Assembly (NCBI GenBank): GCA_017635515.1 | Contig: JAGBLH010000147.1 | Span: forward strand, 1 to 33,962 | Length of the DNA: 33,962 bases | DNA from: Selenomonas sp. | GTDB lineage: Bacteria; Bacillota; Negativicutes; Selenomonadales; Selenomonadaceae | Reading direction: 5' to 3' | Part shown: positions 26,385-33,962 of the stretch, piece by piece | Numbering within the stretch: the first letter of the stretch is position 1 | Layout: the number at the start of each line of letters is the position of its first letter | The notes under the pieces: model-generated | Database searches by the model: none | What the model saw: the letters and a program-made list of their open reading frames with translations, nothing else | Told to the model about the DNA's origin: nothing | Made by a program: the position numbers and the translations under genes

Positions 26385-27375
26385 GCTGCAATATCTGATT
26401 TTCACCGTCATTGTACTGGCCTTGCTCTTTGACTACATCAACGGCTTCCACGATACGGCCAATGCCATCGCCACTTCTGTTTCCACCAGGGCCATCCATC
26501 CCAGCCACGCCATCATGATGGCGGCAGTGCTGAATTTCGCCGGAGCCATGTACTCCACAGGCGTAGCTAAGACCATCGGTGCGGATATCGTGAAATCGGC
26601 CCAGCATGTGGATGAGCATATCATCATCGCGGCCCTGGTAGGGGCTGTGGTCTGGAATATCGTCACCTGGTGGCTGGCTGTGCCCTCCAGTTCCTCCCAC
26701 GCTTTGGTGGGAGGCATTATCGGGGCGGTGCTGGTGTCCGTGGGGGCGGACGGCCTGAATTTTGCCGGTATCGGCAAGATTGTCATTGCCCTTATCGGCT
26801 CGCCGATTTTGGGCATTGCCACGGGCTTCGTCGTGATGATGGTGCTGTATCGGCTCTTTGGCAATGCCAGTCCATCGAAGGTGAACCACAAGTTCAAGAA
26901 AATGCAGATTGCCGCCGCTGCCATGATGGCCTTCTCCCACGGTTCCAATGATGTCCAGAAGTCCATGGGCATCATCACCCTGGCCCTGCTGTCAGGTGGT
27001 TACATAGATGCCTTTGAGGTGCCCACCTATGTCAAGATACTGGCTGCAACTGCCATGGCCTGCGGCACCGCCATGGGCGGCTGGCGCATCATCAAGACGG
27101 TGGGCGGCAAGATTTTCAAGCTGGAGCCCATCTCAGGCTTCGCCGCCGACCTCAATTCCTCCATCGTCATCTTCACCGCCACCATGCTGCACCTGCCGGT
27201 CAGCACCACTCATGTGGTGTCCGGCTCCATCATGGGCGTAGGCACCGCCAAGCGTGTCAACGCCGTCCGTTGGGGCGTAGCCCAGCAGATGGTCATGGCC
27301 TGGGTCATGACCATACCCTGCACTGCTCTCATGGGAGCAGGTGCCTATCAGGTGGTCTGCATGGTGTTCAAGTGA
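26377..27375 (+). CDS. pit: Low-affinity inorganic phosphate transporter
   Basis: This 332-residue membrane protein of the PiT family imports phosphate (often as metal-phosphate) coupled to protons. The two inverted-repeat signatures are GFHDTANAIAT at residues 23-33 and SHGSNDVQKSMG at 187-198. Each is followed by hydrophobic helices and the SSHALVGG and STTHVVSGSIMGVG segments. About ten helices are visible. It is coupled to DUF47 by an 8-base overlap. Its 3' end (last 13 codons and the following GAATAAAGGA) is repeated in diverged form at 28643-28690. Confidence 0.93.
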   Translation: MHELQYLIFTVIVLALLFDYINGFHDTANAIATSVSTRAIHPSHAIMMAAVLNFAGAMYSTGVAKTIGADIVKSAQHVDEHIIIAALVGAVVWNIVTWWLAVPSSSSHALVGGIIGAVLVSVGADGLNFAGIGKIVIALIGSPILGIATGFVVMMVLYRLFGNASPSKVNHKFKKMQIAAAAMMAFSHGSNDVQKSMGIITLALLSGGYIDAFEVPTYVKILAATAMACGTAMGGWRIIKTVGGKIFKLEPISGFAADLNSSIVIFTATMLHLPVSTTHVVSGSIMGVGTAKRVNAVRWGVAQQMVMAWVMTIPCTALMGAGAYQVVCMVFK

Positions 27376-27388
27376 ATAAAGGATAATT

Positions 27389-27446: not shown

Positions 27447-28325
27447 TCATGAGTGGGTATGATGTTTTGATTTTCGTTTGGTTTTAGGCTCTGGTTCTGT
27501 TTTCGGGGCAGGTGTGTCCGGCTGGGCAAAAGCATAATCCAGCAGGGCGGCGGCTTCGGTGAAGCGGGTGTCAAAATCCTTCGAATGCATGACAACCACA
27601 ATATATTCTTTATCCCCGTGCTTGGCTGCAGCTGCCAGACAACCCTGGGCGGCTCTGGTATAGCCTGTCTTGATGCCTGTGCAGCCGGGATAGCTGCCCA
27701 AAAGTTCGTTGGTATTCTCACAGTATTCAACGTGTCCTTTGGGTTTCAGGTAATAGATATTCCTGTCCCGCGTGGAAACGATGGTGCGGAAGGTCTTGTT
27801 TCTCATACCGTAAGCGGCAATCTTGGACATATCCCTAGCCGTGGAATAGTGATTTGGATTGGGCATGCCGTTGGGATTGACAAAATTTGAATGAGTGGCG
27901 CCTATTTCCTGGGCCTTCTGATTCATGATTTTAGCGAAGTTACTCTGATTGCCGCTGAGCACCTCTCCTACAGCCAGTGCAGCACCATTGTCTGAAATCA
28001 GCATCATCTGTTTTAGCAGGTCACTGAATATAAGTTCTTCGCCAGGCTGCAGTTTTGTGCACTCCACATCAGTGGCGGTAGGAGAGATGGTGACAATCTT
28101 GTCAGCCTGTCCTTTTTCCAGCCCGATGATGCAGGTGAGCATTTTTGTCATGCTGGCAGGGTATTCCCTCTTGTCGGCATTCTTTTCATAGACAGCTTTC
28201 TCCGTAGCGGCATCAATGACGATGGCCGCGTCAGCAGTAATGGCTGGTGGCGCTGCTAAGACCATCTGCGCCTGCAGGAGCAGGAGGGCAACTAGCAGCA
28301 AAAGGGAATGTAGTGGCTTTTTCAT
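27447..28325 (-). CDS. dacF: D-alanyl-D-alanine carboxypeptidase
   Basis: This 292-residue penicillin-binding protein of the S11 family trims the terminal D-Ala from peptidoglycan stem peptides. A signal peptide (residues 1 to about 25, KKPLHSLLLLVALLLLQA core, AMVLAA-like cleavage region) directs export. Active-site motifs are all present: SMTK with Ser58 and Lys61, SDN at 111-113, KTG at 219-221. The C-terminal PBP5-type beta domain is missing; after the catalytic domain comes a short Lys/Pro/His-rich tail (PKTEPEPKTKRKSKHH). An AAGGAG site precedes the ATG. A possible -10 is the complement of 28377-28382. Which dac gene it corresponds to is approximate. Confidence 0.9.
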   Translation of the reverse strand: MKKPLHSLLLLVALLLLQAQMVLAAPPAITADAAIVIDAATEKAVYEKNADKREYPASMTKMLTCIIGLEKGQADKIVTISPTATDVECTKLQPGEELIFSDLLKQMMLISDNGAALAVGEVLSGNQSNFAKIMNQKAQEIGATHSNFVNPNGMPNPNHYSTARDMSKIAAYGMRNKTFRTIVSTRDRNIYYLKPKGHVEYCENTNELLGSYPGCTGIKTGYTRAAQGCLAAAAKHGDKEYIVVVMHSKDFDTRFTEAAALLDYAFAQPDTPAPKTEPEPKTKRKSKHHTHS

Positions 28326-28642
28326 GGATAGAACGTCTCCTTTTAAGATTTTCTAGTGGTGAATCACATAGACTACATTCTAGCACGGATAAGGAGTTGA
28401 AAAAAGGGTATGTATCATATGAAAATGTTGATTGTTGACAGTTCATGGAGGTATTGGCAATGGCTGGGTAGAATAAATAAGTGGATATTTCATGGGAAGA
28501 TGGCCATACAGGCCCACAGACCCATGTAAATTGCAGCAAGAAGTGCGCAGGGAAGCGCCGGAGGAGTGCGATATGGCGACACAGAGCATTTTGAAAAGTG
28601 TGAATTGCTTCTTATGAGGATTAAATGCGGCTGGTAGGCTAT
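28326..28642. other. Intergenic stretch with no intact gene
   Basis: Apart from the dacF ribosome site and possible promoter at its left edge, I see no supported gene. A minus-strand frame around 28490-28580 reads a hydrophobic tail (LLAAIYMGLWACMAIFP) that may be a leftover of a membrane-protein gene, but there is nothing else to support it. Confidence 0.4.
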
Positions 28643-28690
28643 GCAGGCGCCTATCAAGTGGTTTGCATGATTTTCAAGTGAATAAAGGAA
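28643..28690 (+). pseudogene. Remnant of the 3' end of a second pit-like gene
   Basis: Bases 28643-28681 encode AGAYQVVCMIFK-stop, against AGAYQVVCMVFK-stop at the end of pit. Several of the base differences are silent (for example CAG to CAA, GTC to GTT), and the match continues past the stop as AATAAAGGA. No more of pit is recognisable upstream. This looks like the tail of a former paralogue rather than a fresh copy. Confidence 0.7.
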
Positions 28691-28718
28691 AAGCACTGTC
28701 GTGACGGCAGTGCTTTTT
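28691..28718 (+). terminator. Intrinsic terminator after the pit remnant
   Basis: AAGCACTGTCG (28691-28701) and CGGCAGTGCTT (28705-28715) pair, with one G-T wobble and a 3-base loop, followed by a T-run. It probably belonged to the lost pit paralogue. Confidence 0.75.
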
Positions 28719-28939
28719 GGTGCGTAGTTTGGCTTTATAGAGTATATCTGACAAGAATACGACCACTGCCCCCCAATATGTGCTCTTCATGGGAGCGTTC
28801 GACATGAGCCGCGAGGGAATCATACATCAGAATATAAAGGAGTATCTTGCAGGGGGGATTGATGAGGGGTGGTCGATGTATGAACAATAATACTAATAAT
28901 AAGGGCGTTGGCTCAATGCTGAGTCGGCGTCTTTTTGAT

Positions 28940-29497
28940 TTATGGGGCATGATGATTTCTTTTTTCCAGATAAGCTTGTAGTAATTCTGAGGCCCAGCCT
29001 TTTAGGAGATGGTGATGCTTATGGAAGTATTTATACCAATCTGGATTAAAGGTGATTGTGCTTTTGAGACCGCATAAGTTCGTGAATCGGTAAGGTAGAT
29101 GAGGGATTAGGTTGAGTTTATGGACAAGTGCTCTTCTGTTGCCATTCAATTCTTGTTCTGTCAGATTTTTAGCAAAGGGGGACAGGAACCTGTAGGGAAC
29201 ATGTGCTAATATTTTAGATTTCAATTTTTGCTGGTCTGTGCTTTTGTTGCCGTATACAGAAGTGACAGCGGTTTAGAGTGTGTCTCGATAACCCAATGTT
29301 AGGTGTTGCTTGAGAACATAGGGCTGGGCAGTGTGAATCATTTCATTTGCCAGGTCATTGAATTTGCAAGTAGTTTGAGCATCTTTGACAGCCGAAAGAA
29401 GAGATAGAAACCAGAAATATTTATGGCTATTGGTAGTTCTGTTAAAAGTTTCATACAGGTAGCTGATATTCAGGTCGTTTTGCAATGGTAAATCCAT
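28940..29497 (-). pseudogene. HNH-endonuclease-family protein, nonsense-mutated and missing its HNH domain
   Basis: A single minus-strand frame runs from ATG at 29497 to TAA at 28940 (186 codons) but is broken by an in-frame TAA at codon 75 (29273-29275). The first part (NDLNISYLYETFNRTTNSHK, then YFWFLSLLSA) and the second (VPYRFLSPFAKN, then NPDWYKYFHKHHHLLKGWA and LQAYLEKRN) line up in order with the N-terminal half of a family of about 330-residue HNH endonuclease-domain proteins seen in restriction/defence settings. The C-terminal half, which carries the HNH nuclease motif, is absent. A TTG at 29224 could restart the second piece, but function is unlikely. Family match is from memory of conserved patterns. 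Confidence 0.65.
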
Positions 29498-29595
29498 GTT
29501 GTGTCTCCCTGTAAATCAAAAGGAAAAATGACAAAATAGACGAAATATTTTAGAAATATGTAGGTGATATGCTTTTAGGCTAGGAGTGGAGAAAT

Positions 29596-30216
29596 ATGGA
29601 TAGCGTCAAGGTTCAAACTATGTATGGATATGCCAGAGTTAGTTCAATATCACAGAACGAGGACAGGCAACTTATAGCTCTTAGGGAGGCAGGGGTACCA
29701 GAAGAAAATATCTATGTGGATAAGATGTCAGGTAAGAATTTTGATCGGCCAGCATATAAAAGACTTATGGATGAGCTTTGCCAGGGGGCAGTTCTCTATA
29801 TAAAATCCATAGATCGCTTGGGGAGAAGCTATTCTGATATTGGTGAGCAGTGGCGTATCATAACCAAGGAAAAGAAGGCTGATGTTTGCGTGATTGATAT
29901 GCCTGTGCTTGATACTAGGCGAGAGAAGAACCTCTTGGGAACCTTTATCAGCGATATCATTCTGGCTTTATTGAGTTATTGCAGTGACAATGAATTGAGC
30001 CTTATACATCAGAGACAGAGGGAGGGGATAGAAGCTGCCAGGGCTAAAGGTGTGAGGTTAGGTAGACCGCCCAAGCCACTGCCGGAAAATTTCCATGAGG
30101 TGTGCAAGGAGTGGGCTATGGGGAAACTTAGCACGGCTGTCGCAGCTAAGAAATGCGGTATACCGGAGTCAACTTTTCGTTACAAGGCAAAAGCGTATAG
30201 AATGCAAAGTAGGTGA
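29596..30216 (+). CDS. Serine recombinase (resolvase/invertase family)
   Basis: This 206-residue site-specific DNA recombinase has the resolvase catalytic domain at residues about 9-145: YGYARVSSISQNEDRQ with nucleophile Ser16, IKSIDRLGRSYSDIGEQW with the catalytic arginines, then the long E-helix. RLGRPPK starts the DNA-binding part, whose C-terminal HTH (STAVAAKKCGIPESTFRYKA) recognises the crossover site. Length fits Pin/Hin/Tn3-resolvase-type enzymes. AGGAGTGGAG precedes the ATG; ATG at 29620 is an alternative. It lies between decayed genes and the defence-like operon, so it may belong to the element that brought the operon or act on nearby sites. Confidence 0.9.
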   Translation: MDSVKVQTMYGYARVSSISQNEDRQLIALREAGVPEENIYVDKMSGKNFDRPAYKRLMDELCQGAVLYIKSIDRLGRSYSDIGEQWRIITKEKKADVCVIDMPVLDTRREKNLLGTFISDIILALLSYCSDNELSLIHQRQREGIEAARAKGVRLGRPPKPLPENFHEVCKEWAMGKLSTAVAAKKCGIPESTFRYKAKAYRMQSR

Positions 30217-30277
30217 GAGGGTGTATCTAAATTGTATAGAAATGTCTATATTTATCAACAAATTGTGTTTATAACTT

Positions 30278-30327
30278 AAACCTATTTGCACAAAAAGGTA
30301 TACATTTTAAAGTAGTGGAATAGGTTT
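30278..30327. repeat. 9-bp inverted repeat framing a possible promoter
   Basis: AAACCTATT (30278-30286) and AATAGGTTT (30319-30327) flank TTGCAC (30286-30291) and TAAAGT (30308-30313), a possible -35/-10 pair with 16-base spacing for the downstream operon. It could be an operator pair; the recombinase gene next door makes a recombination site conceivable. Confidence 0.4.
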
Positions 30328-30377
30328 CGCTCTATGCAGGCTTCCTACAAGGGATTTGTCTACATGGAGTGATTTTT

Positions 30378-32105
30378 TTGTGGTGCAAAGTTTGTGAGAG
30401 GGAGACCGAGACTGAGCGTTGCGAGGTCTGCGGCAGTTTAACCGAAGCTGATGTGCCGGTAGAGATATGTTATTGCCAGAATTGTCAAACGCCTATCGTT
30501 GTGAGCGTCAATGAGAAATCTGATAAGATGTGCTGCCCAAACTGCGGTGAGCGTATAAAGCGACTATGCAAGGATATGCGTCCGGTTTTTCCGGAAGAGA
30601 GATTGTTGTTGGAAATATTAACGGCAGAGCCATTGGCATATTTAGAGAAGAGTGTGTGGGCGTGTGGCAGTAGGTATTACATAGATGGTAAATCTATGGT
30701 GGTACCGCTTAAGGCCTTTGCTGAAGCAGATACGGATAAGATCAAGGCATTACTTGAAAAATGGAAACTGAAGAACAGATACGAATATTTTGATGCACAG
30801 ATAGAGAGATTCGTAGCGGCTAATGCGAGGCGACTCACAGCTATGAAGGAAGAAGCATTTCGATTCATCAGGGAAACTGCGGCAAAGTTTTCTCAAGAGC
30901 AGATAGTTCTTTCCTTTTCTGGTGGGAAGGATTCTACTGTTACAGCCGATTTGGCTGTAAGAGCTTTGGCTAATCCAAGTCTGGTGCATATTTTTGGCAA
31001 TACTACTTTAGAATTTCCTATGACCATGGCTTATGCGGAGCGCTTTAGGAAAAGCCATCCGCAGGCTATCTTCAAGGTGGCGCAAAACAAGGAACAGAAT
31101 TTCTATGAAGTCTGCTCTGATATAGGTCCTCCAGCACGAATGCTTAGATGGTGTTGCACAATGTTTAAGACAGGACCTATTACCCGTGCTTTGAATAGTT
31201 TGTTCAGAGGGCAACGAGTTCTGACCTTTTATGGTGTCCGCAAGTTTGAGTCTGTATCGCGCAGCAAGTACAAGCGTGTAGAAGATGATGCAAGTTCAGT
31301 GAAGATACAGCGTCAGACAGTGGCTTCTCCAGTGTTCCTATGGCACGATATTGATATTTGGTTGTATATATTGGGTGAGCGGCTGGATTTCAATGAGGCA
31401 TATCGTTTAGGGTATGATCGCGTGGGCTGCTGGTGTTGTCCTAATAACAACGTGCGGGCAATGTTTTTGTCCAACATATACATGCCAGAGGCTGCTGAGA
31501 AATGGCATAGTTTTTTGGTGGATTTTGCTCGACGGATTGGAAAACCAGACCCTGAAGAATATGTTGATTCTGGCAACTGGAAAAGCAGACAGGGGGGCAA
31601 TGGTGTAAAGGCAGCAGAGGATGTAAAGCTGAAGTTTGCTAATTGCACAGCAGAGGAAAATGCTAAGATTTATCGTTTGAAAAGTCCCATGTCCAGAGAT
31701 TTAACCAATTTATTTATCCCTATTGGTATAGTTTCGGAGGAAATGGGAAGAAAGATACTGCATGAAGTTATGGTTTTAGAGCCCAGGACTAAGGTTCCTA
31801 TTATGTCCTTGCAGCCGTTTCAGCAGGATGGTTATGAATATGCTGTCAAGGTTAAGACCATGAATGTAGTAGACCATGAAGCTTTGCAGCGTATGGCCGG
31901 ATATCAGGTTAGGAAATTTAATGCCTGTCGCAGGTGCTTGAAGTGTGAATCTCTTTGCCCACACGGTGCCATCAAAATCAAGGGAAATAGCTACAAGATA
32001 GATGAAGAAAAGTGCAAGAGATGCAAAATGTGTGTTACTGCTAAGTTCCTTGACGGCGGCTGTCTCATGGACAAGTTTTTGAAGACAAATTTGGAGAAGA
32101 AATAG
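30378..32105 (+). CDS. PAPS-reductase-like ATP-pyrophosphatase with zinc ribbons and 2x[4Fe-4S] (BrxP/SspD/DndC-like)
   Basis: This is a 575-residue protein. The N-terminus has several cysteine pairs (WCKVC, RCEVC, CYCQNC, CCPNC) forming two or so zinc ribbons. The central adenylyl-sulfate-reductase-type PP-loop is SGGKDS at 181-186, followed by RWCC and VGCWCCPNN cysteine motifs. A ferredoxin-like end has CxxCxxCxxxCP from Cys517 and CxxCxxC from Cys546. By analogy with DndC/SspD and BREX type 4 BrxP, it would activate DNA backbone or sulfur for phosphorothioate modification; this is inference. Ordinary cysteine-synthesis PAPS reductase is unlikely given the neighbours and size. TTG at 30378 (GGAG 8 bases before) is chosen over GTG at 30369. 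The DUF4007 gene starts 2 bases after its stop. Confidence 0.85.
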   Translation: MWCKVCERETETERCEVCGSLTEADVPVEICYCQNCQTPIVVSVNEKSDKMCCPNCGERIKRLCKDMRPVFPEERLLLEILTAEPLAYLEKSVWACGSRYYIDGKSMVVPLKAFAEADTDKIKALLEKWKLKNRYEYFDAQIERFVAANARRLTAMKEEAFRFIRETAAKFSQEQIVLSFSGGKDSTVTADLAVRALANPSLVHIFGNTTLEFPMTMAYAERFRKSHPQAIFKVAQNKEQNFYEVCSDIGPPARMLRWCCTMFKTGPITRALNSLFRGQRVLTFYGVRKFESVSRSKYKRVEDDASSVKIQRQTVASPVFLWHDIDIWLYILGERLDFNEAYRLGYDRVGCWCCPNNNVRAMFLSNIYMPEAAEKWHSFLVDFARRIGKPDPEEYVDSGNWKSRQGGNGVKAAEDVKLKFANCTAEENAKIYRLKSPMSRDLTNLFIPIGIVSEEMGRKILHEVMVLEPRTKVPIMSLQPFQQDGYEYAVKVKTMNVVDHEALQRMAGYQVRKFNACRRCLKCESLCPHGAIKIKGNSYKIDEEKCKRCKMCVTAKFLDGGCLMDKFLKTNLEKK

Positions 32106-32106
32106 A

Positions 32107-32979
32107 ATGAAATTCAAAGGGCATGAGTCGTTTTATATACGTCGCGGGTGGCTTTACAAAGGGTTAAAGCATGTGCGAAAGCGTGAGGATATATTTTTGG
32201 CAAAGGATGCCATGGAGGAGTTGGGCTTGGGCAGCAATATGATCAAGTCCCTCAGATATTGGTTGCAAACTACAGGGCTTACCAAGGAAGTAAGTGAAGG
32301 AGGGCGGCGCATCCAGCATCTGACCCATCTGGGGGAGATTATCTGGCAGCATGACCCATACATAGAAGAGATAGGAACTCTGTGGTTGCTTCATTTAGAG
32401 ATGGCATCAAATCAAGAACTTGCTACTTCTTGGTATGAATTTTTCAACGAGTTTTCCATGCAGGAATTCCAAAAGGAAGATTTTGTCCGGTTCATTCAAA
32501 GGAAGACGGAGGCGGCAGAAAGCTCTTTGGGCAGTGACTTTGACTGCTTGATGAGCACTTACATTCCACGTAGCTTACTGAAGGGTAAGATTGATCCAGA
32601 AAGCAACATGGAATGTCCTATGGGAAATCTGCAACTGATAGGCTATGCTTCGGCAAAAGAAAAAATTTACCGGCGGCAGACCTTGAATGGTAATTCTGTG
32701 CCTGAGTGCATATTTATGGCTTGTTTGATAAGAGAAGCCAAAGGTAGAAAAGAAATAAGTCTGCAGGAAATATTGTCTGGCAGACAGGACAATCCTGGTG
32801 TGGGCAGGATGTGTCAAATGGATTTGGTGGCCATGCTGGAAGTCCTGTATAGTCTGGAAAAACGGAAGGCCTTGAAAGTGGTGCGTACAGCGGGTCTGGA
32901 TGTGGTCAGACTGTCTGATTATCAGGAGCCTTTAGAGTGGGTTAGCAGGTATTATCAGGAATTGAGCGGAGAAGGATGA
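32107..32979 (+). CDS. DUF4007 protein (SspB-like candidate)
   Basis: This 290-residue protein has the DUF4007 opening KFKGHESFYIRRGWLYKGLK, with the conserved GHE(S/T)F and RxxWLxKG pattern, then LGLGSNMIKSLRYWL, THLGEIIWQHDPY and LWLLHLEMA. DUF4007 proteins are found with PAPS-reductase-like and ATPase genes in DNA-modification defence loci; as I recall, SspB of Ssp systems, a DNA nickase, belongs to this family. No HNH or other nuclease motif can be pointed to by eye. It begins directly after the preceding stop and shares ATGA with the next gene, so all three are one translation-coupled operon. Confidence 0.85.
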   Translation: MKFKGHESFYIRRGWLYKGLKHVRKREDIFLAKDAMEELGLGSNMIKSLRYWLQTTGLTKEVSEGGRRIQHLTHLGEIIWQHDPYIEEIGTLWLLHLEMASNQELATSWYEFFNEFSMQEFQKEDFVRFIQRKTEAAESSLGSDFDCLMSTYIPRSLLKGKIDPESNMECPMGNLQLIGYASAKEKIYRRQTLNGNSVPECIFMACLIREAKGRKEISLQEILSGRQDNPGVGRMCQMDLVAMLEVLYSLEKRKALKVVRTAGLDVVRLSDYQEPLEWVSRYYQELSGEG

Positions 32980-33962
32980 CTTTGGGAATAGAAGAATTGA
33001 TAAAACCACGCAGTGGATTTCAGACATCGGTCAATTTGGCCTATGATTTGGAGCGGGCGGATAAAATAAAAGATTTTGTGCCCACCAAGGCCACTATGAA
33101 AGTGTTGGAGAAGCTGATGCTCCCTACAGCTCCTGGAGCTTCGGAAAGGGCGCATATACTGATTGGAGCCTACGGCAAGGGAAAAAGCCATTTGGTGCTT
33201 GTACTTTTGGCTATGATGGCTAAGAGACATAAGGAAGAATTGGCACCAGTGGTCAGTGCCATGCTGGAATACAAAGAGGAATTGGGCCGCTTTGCAGAAG
33301 AACAGCTTTTGGGAGAAAGTCAGAAGCCTATTCTGCCAGTGGTCATAGATGGCAGCCAGGGAAGCCTTTCTCAAGCATTTTTGAGTGCTCTGTATGGTGC
33401 GTTATCTCAGGCGGGTATGGAAGATTTGATGCCAGAGACACATTTTGAAGCAGCAATAAAGCAGATTGAGCTTTGGGAGAAGGATTTTCCAGATACATAT
33501 GCAGCTATGAAGAAAATACTCCCGGATTCGCCTAAGGAATTTAAAAACAAACTGGCTTCCTTCGATGGGGCAAGTTACGAGTATTTCCTGGAGATTTATC
33601 CTCAGCTTACTTCTGGTAGCGTATTTAATCCCTTCATGGGGTTCAATATTGTGGAACTGTATACTAGGACGGCTGAGGCGGTAAAAGCTAAGGGTTATAG
33701 AGGGCTTTACGTAGTTTATGATGAATTTAGCAAGTTTCTGGAGGCTAACATTGCTTCGGCTGGTGTAAGTGATACCAGATTGCTGCAAGATTTTGCTGAG
33801 CGGGCGGGGCGTAGTGGCTCGGCTCAGCTTCATCTATTGTTGATTGCTCACAAGGATATTGCCAATTATCTTGACCGTCTGCCTAAAAAAAAGGTGGACG
33901 GTTGGCAGGCAGTTTCGGAGCGATTTGTCCCCATAGAAATGCGCAATAGTTTTGTGCAGTCC
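32976..33962 (+). CDS. P-loop ATPase of the defence operon, partial (SspC or BrxC/PglY-like)
   Basis: The gene starts with ATG inside the ATGA overlap at 32976-32979 and stays open to the window edge (329 codons), so its 3' end is missing. It opens MTLGIEELIKPRSGFQTSVN. A Walker A motif GAYGKGKS lies at residues 64-71 after an HILI strand, and a Walker B-like strand LYVVYDEF carries Asp249/Glu250. HLLLIAHKD follows as a sensor-like strand. The layout resembles the N-terminal ATPase of BrxC/PglY and of Ssp/DUF499-type defence ATPases. Which one it is depends on its full length and the genes after it. Codon use is AT-richer than the core genes. Confidence 0.75.
   Translation, partial: MTLGIEELIKPRSGFQTSVNLAYDLERADKIKDFVPTKATMKVLEKLMLPTAPGASERAHILIGAYGKGKSHLVLVLLAMMAKRHKEELAPVVSAMLEYKEELGRFAEEQLLGESQKPILPVVIDGSQGSLSQAFLSALYGALSQAGMEDLMPETHFEAAIKQIELWEKDFPDTYAAMKKILPDSPKEFKNKLASFDGASYEYFLEIYPQLTSGSVFNPFMGFNIVELYTRTAEAVKAKGYRGLYVVYDEFSKFLEANIASAGVSDTRLLQDFAERAGRSGSAQLHLLLIAHKDIANYLDRLPKKKVDGWQAVSERFVPIEMRNSFVQS

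Follow-up and report, generated by a model that had tools for sequence, protein, structure and literature searches.

What kind of operon begins at the right-hand end of this Selenomonas contig, and what would its missing half encode? The stretch of DNA analysed here (the window) is one entire contig of 33,962 bases from a MAG of 316 contigs, estimated to be 95% complete with 5.8% contamination, and because it is a whole contig, the operon is unreadable past position 33962 in this assembly. Three open frames of the plus strand lie in the same direction between 30378 and 33962 (ORF list), and an earlier note, made from the sequence alone, read them as a DNA-phosphorothioation-type defence operon running off the right edge. 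Gene 3 is indeed still open at the contig end, and both profile matches and the operons of relatives support the defence reading. In our assessment, the contig end quite probably holds the modification genes that head a DNA-phosphorothioation defence operon with the layout SspDBCA-(DUF262)-PbeABCD. This reading is drawn from the family matches, the operon layout in relatives, the sister group of the SspB protein, the branch formed by Ssp-linked PbeA and the failure to find PglZ in the genome itself and four relatives; the estimated contamination of 5.8% is a caveat on it, and the effector half could differ or be lost in this strain.

Three Genes at the Contig End

Profile searches, which the earlier note had suggested as a check, placed all three products in the expected families (Table 1). 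The gene 1 product, described in that note as PAPS-reductase/ATP-pyrophosphatase-like, combines a cysteine-rich, zinc-ribbon-like stretch at the N-terminus, a PAPS-reductase/ATP-pyrophosphatase core with an SGGKDS loop and a 4Fe-4S ferredoxin-type motif at the C-terminus; the SGGKDS loop and several cysteines are near-invariant across 36 aligned SspD proteins, the window's own included. Its start at TTG 30378 is preferred to an in-frame GTG that is also present upstream (30369), since the product start MWCK... agrees with the starts of relatives. Gene 2 encodes the DUF4007 protein that had been recognised, with a match to the solved SspB structure, and is predicted to be the subunit for DNA recognition and nicking. 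Gene 3, proposed as a P-loop ATPase and confirmed as such, has the Walker A motif GAYGKGKS and the Walker B motif VVYDEF, with G64, G69, K70, S71, D249 and E250 conserved across 42 aligned SspC proteins (window included); full-length SspC in relatives has about 1200 amino acids. The tight coupling of the genes stands at the second junction, an ATGA overlap (32976 versus 32979), while the gap of two bases given for the first is one base by measurement, from the stop TAG at 32103-32105 to the ATG at 32107.

Table 1. Features at the right-hand end of the window.
Feature	Positions	Strand	Evidence and remarks
Probable horizontally acquired island	28476..33962	.	Composition; blastn against G002 contigs
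Serine recombinase (resolvase)	29596..30216	+	PF00239 1.3e-25; immediately upstream of the trio
SspD/BrxP-like Fe-S PAPS-reductase protein, 575 aa (gene 1)	30378..32105	+	PF01507 9e-31, Fer4-type matches; PADLOC BrxP/SspD
SspB (DUF4007), 290 aa (gene 2)	32107..32979	+	PF13182 1.6e-74; PADLOC SspB 2.9e-57; PDB 6juf/6lb9 5e-25
SspC, N-terminal 329 codons, P-loop AAA ATPase (gene 3)	32976..33962	+	PADLOC SspC 5.9e-40; cut by the contig end

The trio lies in a stretch with a G+C content of about 0.40-0.46, against about 0.53 to its left. Similarity to a genome of the same genus (G002, L073), which at 28235-28475 includes the start of dacA, ends at 28475 (blastn), and gene content diverges from there on; judged by sequence, the segment from 28476 onwards was probably acquired horizontally. 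The resolvase, with a homologue in the same position in the Selenomonas relatives L013 and L037, is possibly a mobility gene of the island that stands outside the defence mechanism. A 50-base repeat (88%; 27337-27386 and 28643-28692) corresponds to the 3' end of a phosphate-transporter gene and recurs past dacA, on the left side of the low-G+C stretch, where it may be a trace of insertion or duplication.

A PADLOC search for SspC elsewhere in the genome gave no match, and a query joining the rest of SspC with the DUF262 protein, PbeA and PbeC, all from a relative, found nothing in the genome's own assembly. The same query recovered the operon in three relatives, and the absence is therefore real for this assembly. 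For everything that would follow SspC codon 329 in this genome, we infer the content from relatives.

Operon Layout in Relatives

DNA around DUF4007 genes was collected across the class and, for the phylum, in an even sample, and the loci were annotated with seeds whose names came from Pfam, PADLOC and NCBIfam; the neighbour genomes named here are Selenomonas and Veillonellaceae MAGs. Close relatives have the order D-B-C-A, followed by PbeA, a PbeB-like frame, PbeC and a small protein, and in many a DUF262 gene stands before, after or inside the Pbe set. Two examples, L013 and L016, continue from C-A with DUF262, PbeA, PbeC and the small protein, with scores of 783 and 808 bits for PbeA, 304 and 353 bits for PbeC, and 431 and 468 bits for SspC; SspA of L013 scores 105 bits. 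Among the D-B-C loci, 28 extend more than 4 kb past SspC; PbeA lies downstream in 21 of them (L048 having a fragment only), and one more (L044/L087) has the Pbe set upstream; some of the 28 are near-copies and thus not independent events. Most Selenomonadaceae loci carry Pbe.

The lack of a cysteine desulfurase in the window, correctly stated before, agrees with this layout: in most relatives SspA directly follows SspC, and as the next gene it would fall past the contig end here. The gene order had also seemed unusual, as it differs from sspB-sspC-sspD. It does differ, and D-B-C-A is the normal arrangement in this clade, with B-C-D also in the sample (L046, likewise with Pbe). In the SspB tree, the window's protein is sister to three Selenomonas-type copies with support of 100/100. 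Two of these sisters have complete loci (L013, L037), both with DUF262 and with PbeA, PbeB, PbeC and PbeD, and the third locus stops inside SspC.

Searches in a phage collection returned SspB only on unannotated fecal scaffolds. One of them, deposited as bacteriophage (L091, MT835493.1), encodes an SspB 44% identical to that of a relative, and may be either DNA of a bacterium or a defence island carried by a phage.

The Pbe Cassette and the DUF262 Protein

The PbeB-like frame has about 50-68 amino acids in the PbeA-PbeC junctions examined; archaeal PbeB has 66 (PMC6459918). As to the small protein behind PbeC, 12 of 20 copies match TIGR04062 (dnd_assoc_4; best 3.4e-6), a name also borne by a gene close to PbeA and PbeC on a plasmid of the cyanobacterium Pseudanabaena, and on these grounds it is read as PbeD; a profile search with it gave no convincing match, and DndE was matched once, weakly (E 0.023). 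The PbeA proteins of relatives retain HEK...GS.N and the DUF262 proteins DGQQR and HH...N, consistent with active enzymes. Searches against solved structures with SspC, PbeC and the DUF262 protein of L013 gave no match. The DUF262 protein resembles SspE/GmrSD in its GmrSD_N domain and in both motifs, and in L014 GmrSD_C matches as well, whereas the DUF262 proteins of L013 and L016/L019 have no PADLOC match to SspE.

Ssp-linked PbeA proteins form 19 rows on one side of a branch (99/96), one of them about 37 kb from Ssp on the same contig, with ten PbeA proteins without Ssp on the other side; most of the 19 were gathered via SspB, which could inflate the split. A PbeA search independent of SspB in a phylum-wide sample gave the same split, and 10 of its 21 full-length PbeA genes adjoin SspB. 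In L036 and L037, PbeA is present in two frames, and in L048 as a fragment, with the Ssp genes still open; this suggests effector decay or assembly errors.

The nearest described arrangement is DndCDEA-PbeABCD of Haloterrigena jeotgali, in which a four-gene PbeA-B-C-D cassette is likewise tied to a phosphorothioation module. There, however, the modification genes are of the Dnd type, with the ABC ATPase DndD and DndE, whereas here they are of the Ssp type, with the AAA ATPase SspC and SspB, and Ssp-linked PbeA has its own branch in the Bacillota sample. With SspABCD systems, which work with SspE or SspFGH, the locus shares homologous SspB and SspC, a PAPS-reductase-type SspD and, in relatives, SspA; it differs in the order D-B-C-A as against B-C-D, in a long SspD with zinc-ribbon-like and 4Fe-4S parts, and in the partner, which in most relatives is PbeABCD, often together with a DUF262 protein.

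Alternative Readings

With regard to the effector half, some relatives speak against the main reading: L014 retains the DUF262 gene and has no Pbe, L048 has a PbeA fragment, and L053-L055 have other effectors. An Ssp modification module could be joined here to a different effector, namely SspFGH, a single DUF262 gene or a set of helicase, GHKL ATPase and PLD protein. There are precedents: D-B-C(-A) modules come with SspFGH in L054, with a helicase and HATPase in L053 and L055, and in L014 with a DUF262 gene but not Pbe. We nevertheless regard this as unlikely for the window, as both complete members of its own branch (L013, L037) carry DUF262 and Pbe, as do most Selenomonadaceae loci in the case of Pbe. 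The effectors beside a D-B-C(-A) module thus differ between loci and appear, from locus comparison, to have been exchanged. In four loci (L044, L053, L055, L089), SspDBC(A) is followed by a GHKL-type ATPase, with an SF2 helicase in three of the four and a PLD protein on the Treponema plasmid; the set of helicase and GHKL-type ATPase is that of L053, L055 and this plasmid, and no named system was found for it in this analysis.

It is highly improbable, in our estimate, that the locus is of the type 4 BREX kind, with BrxP, DUF4007 and BrxC in view and PglZ and BrxL past the contig end. Gene 1 does score far better against PADLOC BrxP (1.6e-79) than against SspD (1.5e-11); a DUF4007 component belongs to type 4 BREX, which often includes a cysteine desulfurase as well (PMC12839542), and PglZ-like and BrxL genes occur in one D-B-C relative (L063). 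The BrxP-like score reflects an Fe-S PAPS-reductase architecture common to type 4 BREX and a subset of SspD proteins (PMC12839542). Against this reading, gene 3 matches SspC better than BrxC in PADLOC, L063 is remote from the window in the SspB tree while the close branch carries Pbe, and no PglZ was found in the genome itself, an incomplete assembly, or in G014, G020, G029 and G039, with the control positive in two of 14 genomes. BrxL is not among the annotated operon genes of close relatives. Type 4 BREX and this locus share the BrxP-like Fe-S PAPS reductase, DUF4007 and an ATPase of the BrxC/SspC type; the differences are the DUF4007 gene, which here is separate and not fused, and, in relatives, PbeABCD in place of the PglZ that was not found. 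As PglZ was not found, type 4 BREX was rejected as the main reading. The suggestion of a variant or hybrid accordingly holds for a combination of Ssp with PbeABCD, as seen in relatives, and fails for one with type 4 BREX. In L063 itself, D-B-C is followed by a second pair of SspB-like and SspC-like genes, a PglZ-like gene, BrxL and SspA; this locus resembles type 4 BREX with its B-C genes doubled, and L041 may be similar.

We give equally little credence to a decaying or orphan modification module whose effectors have been lost in this strain. The downstream half is absent from the assembly and some relatives have a broken PbeA (L036, L037, the L048 fragment), but all three frames are intact and keep the conserved motifs, and the break is a contig end, as expected in a fragmented MAG. 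A Dnd (DndBCDE) module was rejected, with the DndC match of gene 1 (1e-09) far below that to BrxP and an ATPase of the SspC type.

Proposed Mechanism

On the main reading of an SspDBCA-(DUF262)-PbeABCD operon, SspDBCA would mark host DNA, while PbeABCD and the DUF262 protein would act on unmarked or foreign DNA. By analogy with the Ssp literature, SspA would take sulfur from cysteine and pass it to the Fe-S protein SspD, and SspB with the SspC ring ATPase would find, and perhaps nick, host backbone sites for the placement of sulfur. PbeC (a CxC-type ABC ATPase), PbeD and PbeB may then scan DNA, and PbeA, with an HKD nuclease-like domain and an SF2 helicase, may block the replication of unmarked DNA or cut it; the DUF262 protein would add another nuclease, one responsive to the mark. 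The assignment of nicking to SspB, of sulfur transfer to this SspD and of cutting to PbeA draws on family knowledge. In an archaeon, PbeABCD with Dnd marks blocked the replication of virus DNA, with pbeB, pbeC and pbeD essential and pbeA partly so (PMC6459918). Cutting by PbeA has been argued from its HKD domain (PMC10853773) and is disputed between these two papers.

Significance of the Ssp-Pbe Pairing

PbeABCD has been described with Dnd modification genes (PMC6459918). In the part of the literature available to us, Pbe appears with Dnd or methylases, and Ssp with SspE or SspFGH; strains have also been scored for PT genes and pbeA-D, with Ssp and Dnd not separated in the accessible text (PMC7464106). 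A full-text literature search, with many subscription papers outside its scope, found no description of a linked Ssp-Pbe operon, and the novelty of the pairing is provisional.

Two surveys have left modules without partners: of 2,678 sspBCD modules, 2,211 lacked both sspE and sspFGH in their vicinity (PMC8092258), and for 165 of 553 PbeAC pairs no modification genes lay close by (PMC6459918). Linkage of SspDBCA with PbeABCD would close each of these gaps in part. We hold it somewhat more probable than otherwise that SspDBCA-PbeABCD is a distinct, stably co-inherited type of phosphorothioation defence with its own PbeA branch, providing the restriction partner for some "orphan" SspBCD modules and the modification partner for some "solitary" PbeAC pairs. 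With the pairing, two questions become testable: does Pbe read Ssp-type marks, which may lie at other sites than Dnd marks, and can several interchangeable effectors share a single modification module?
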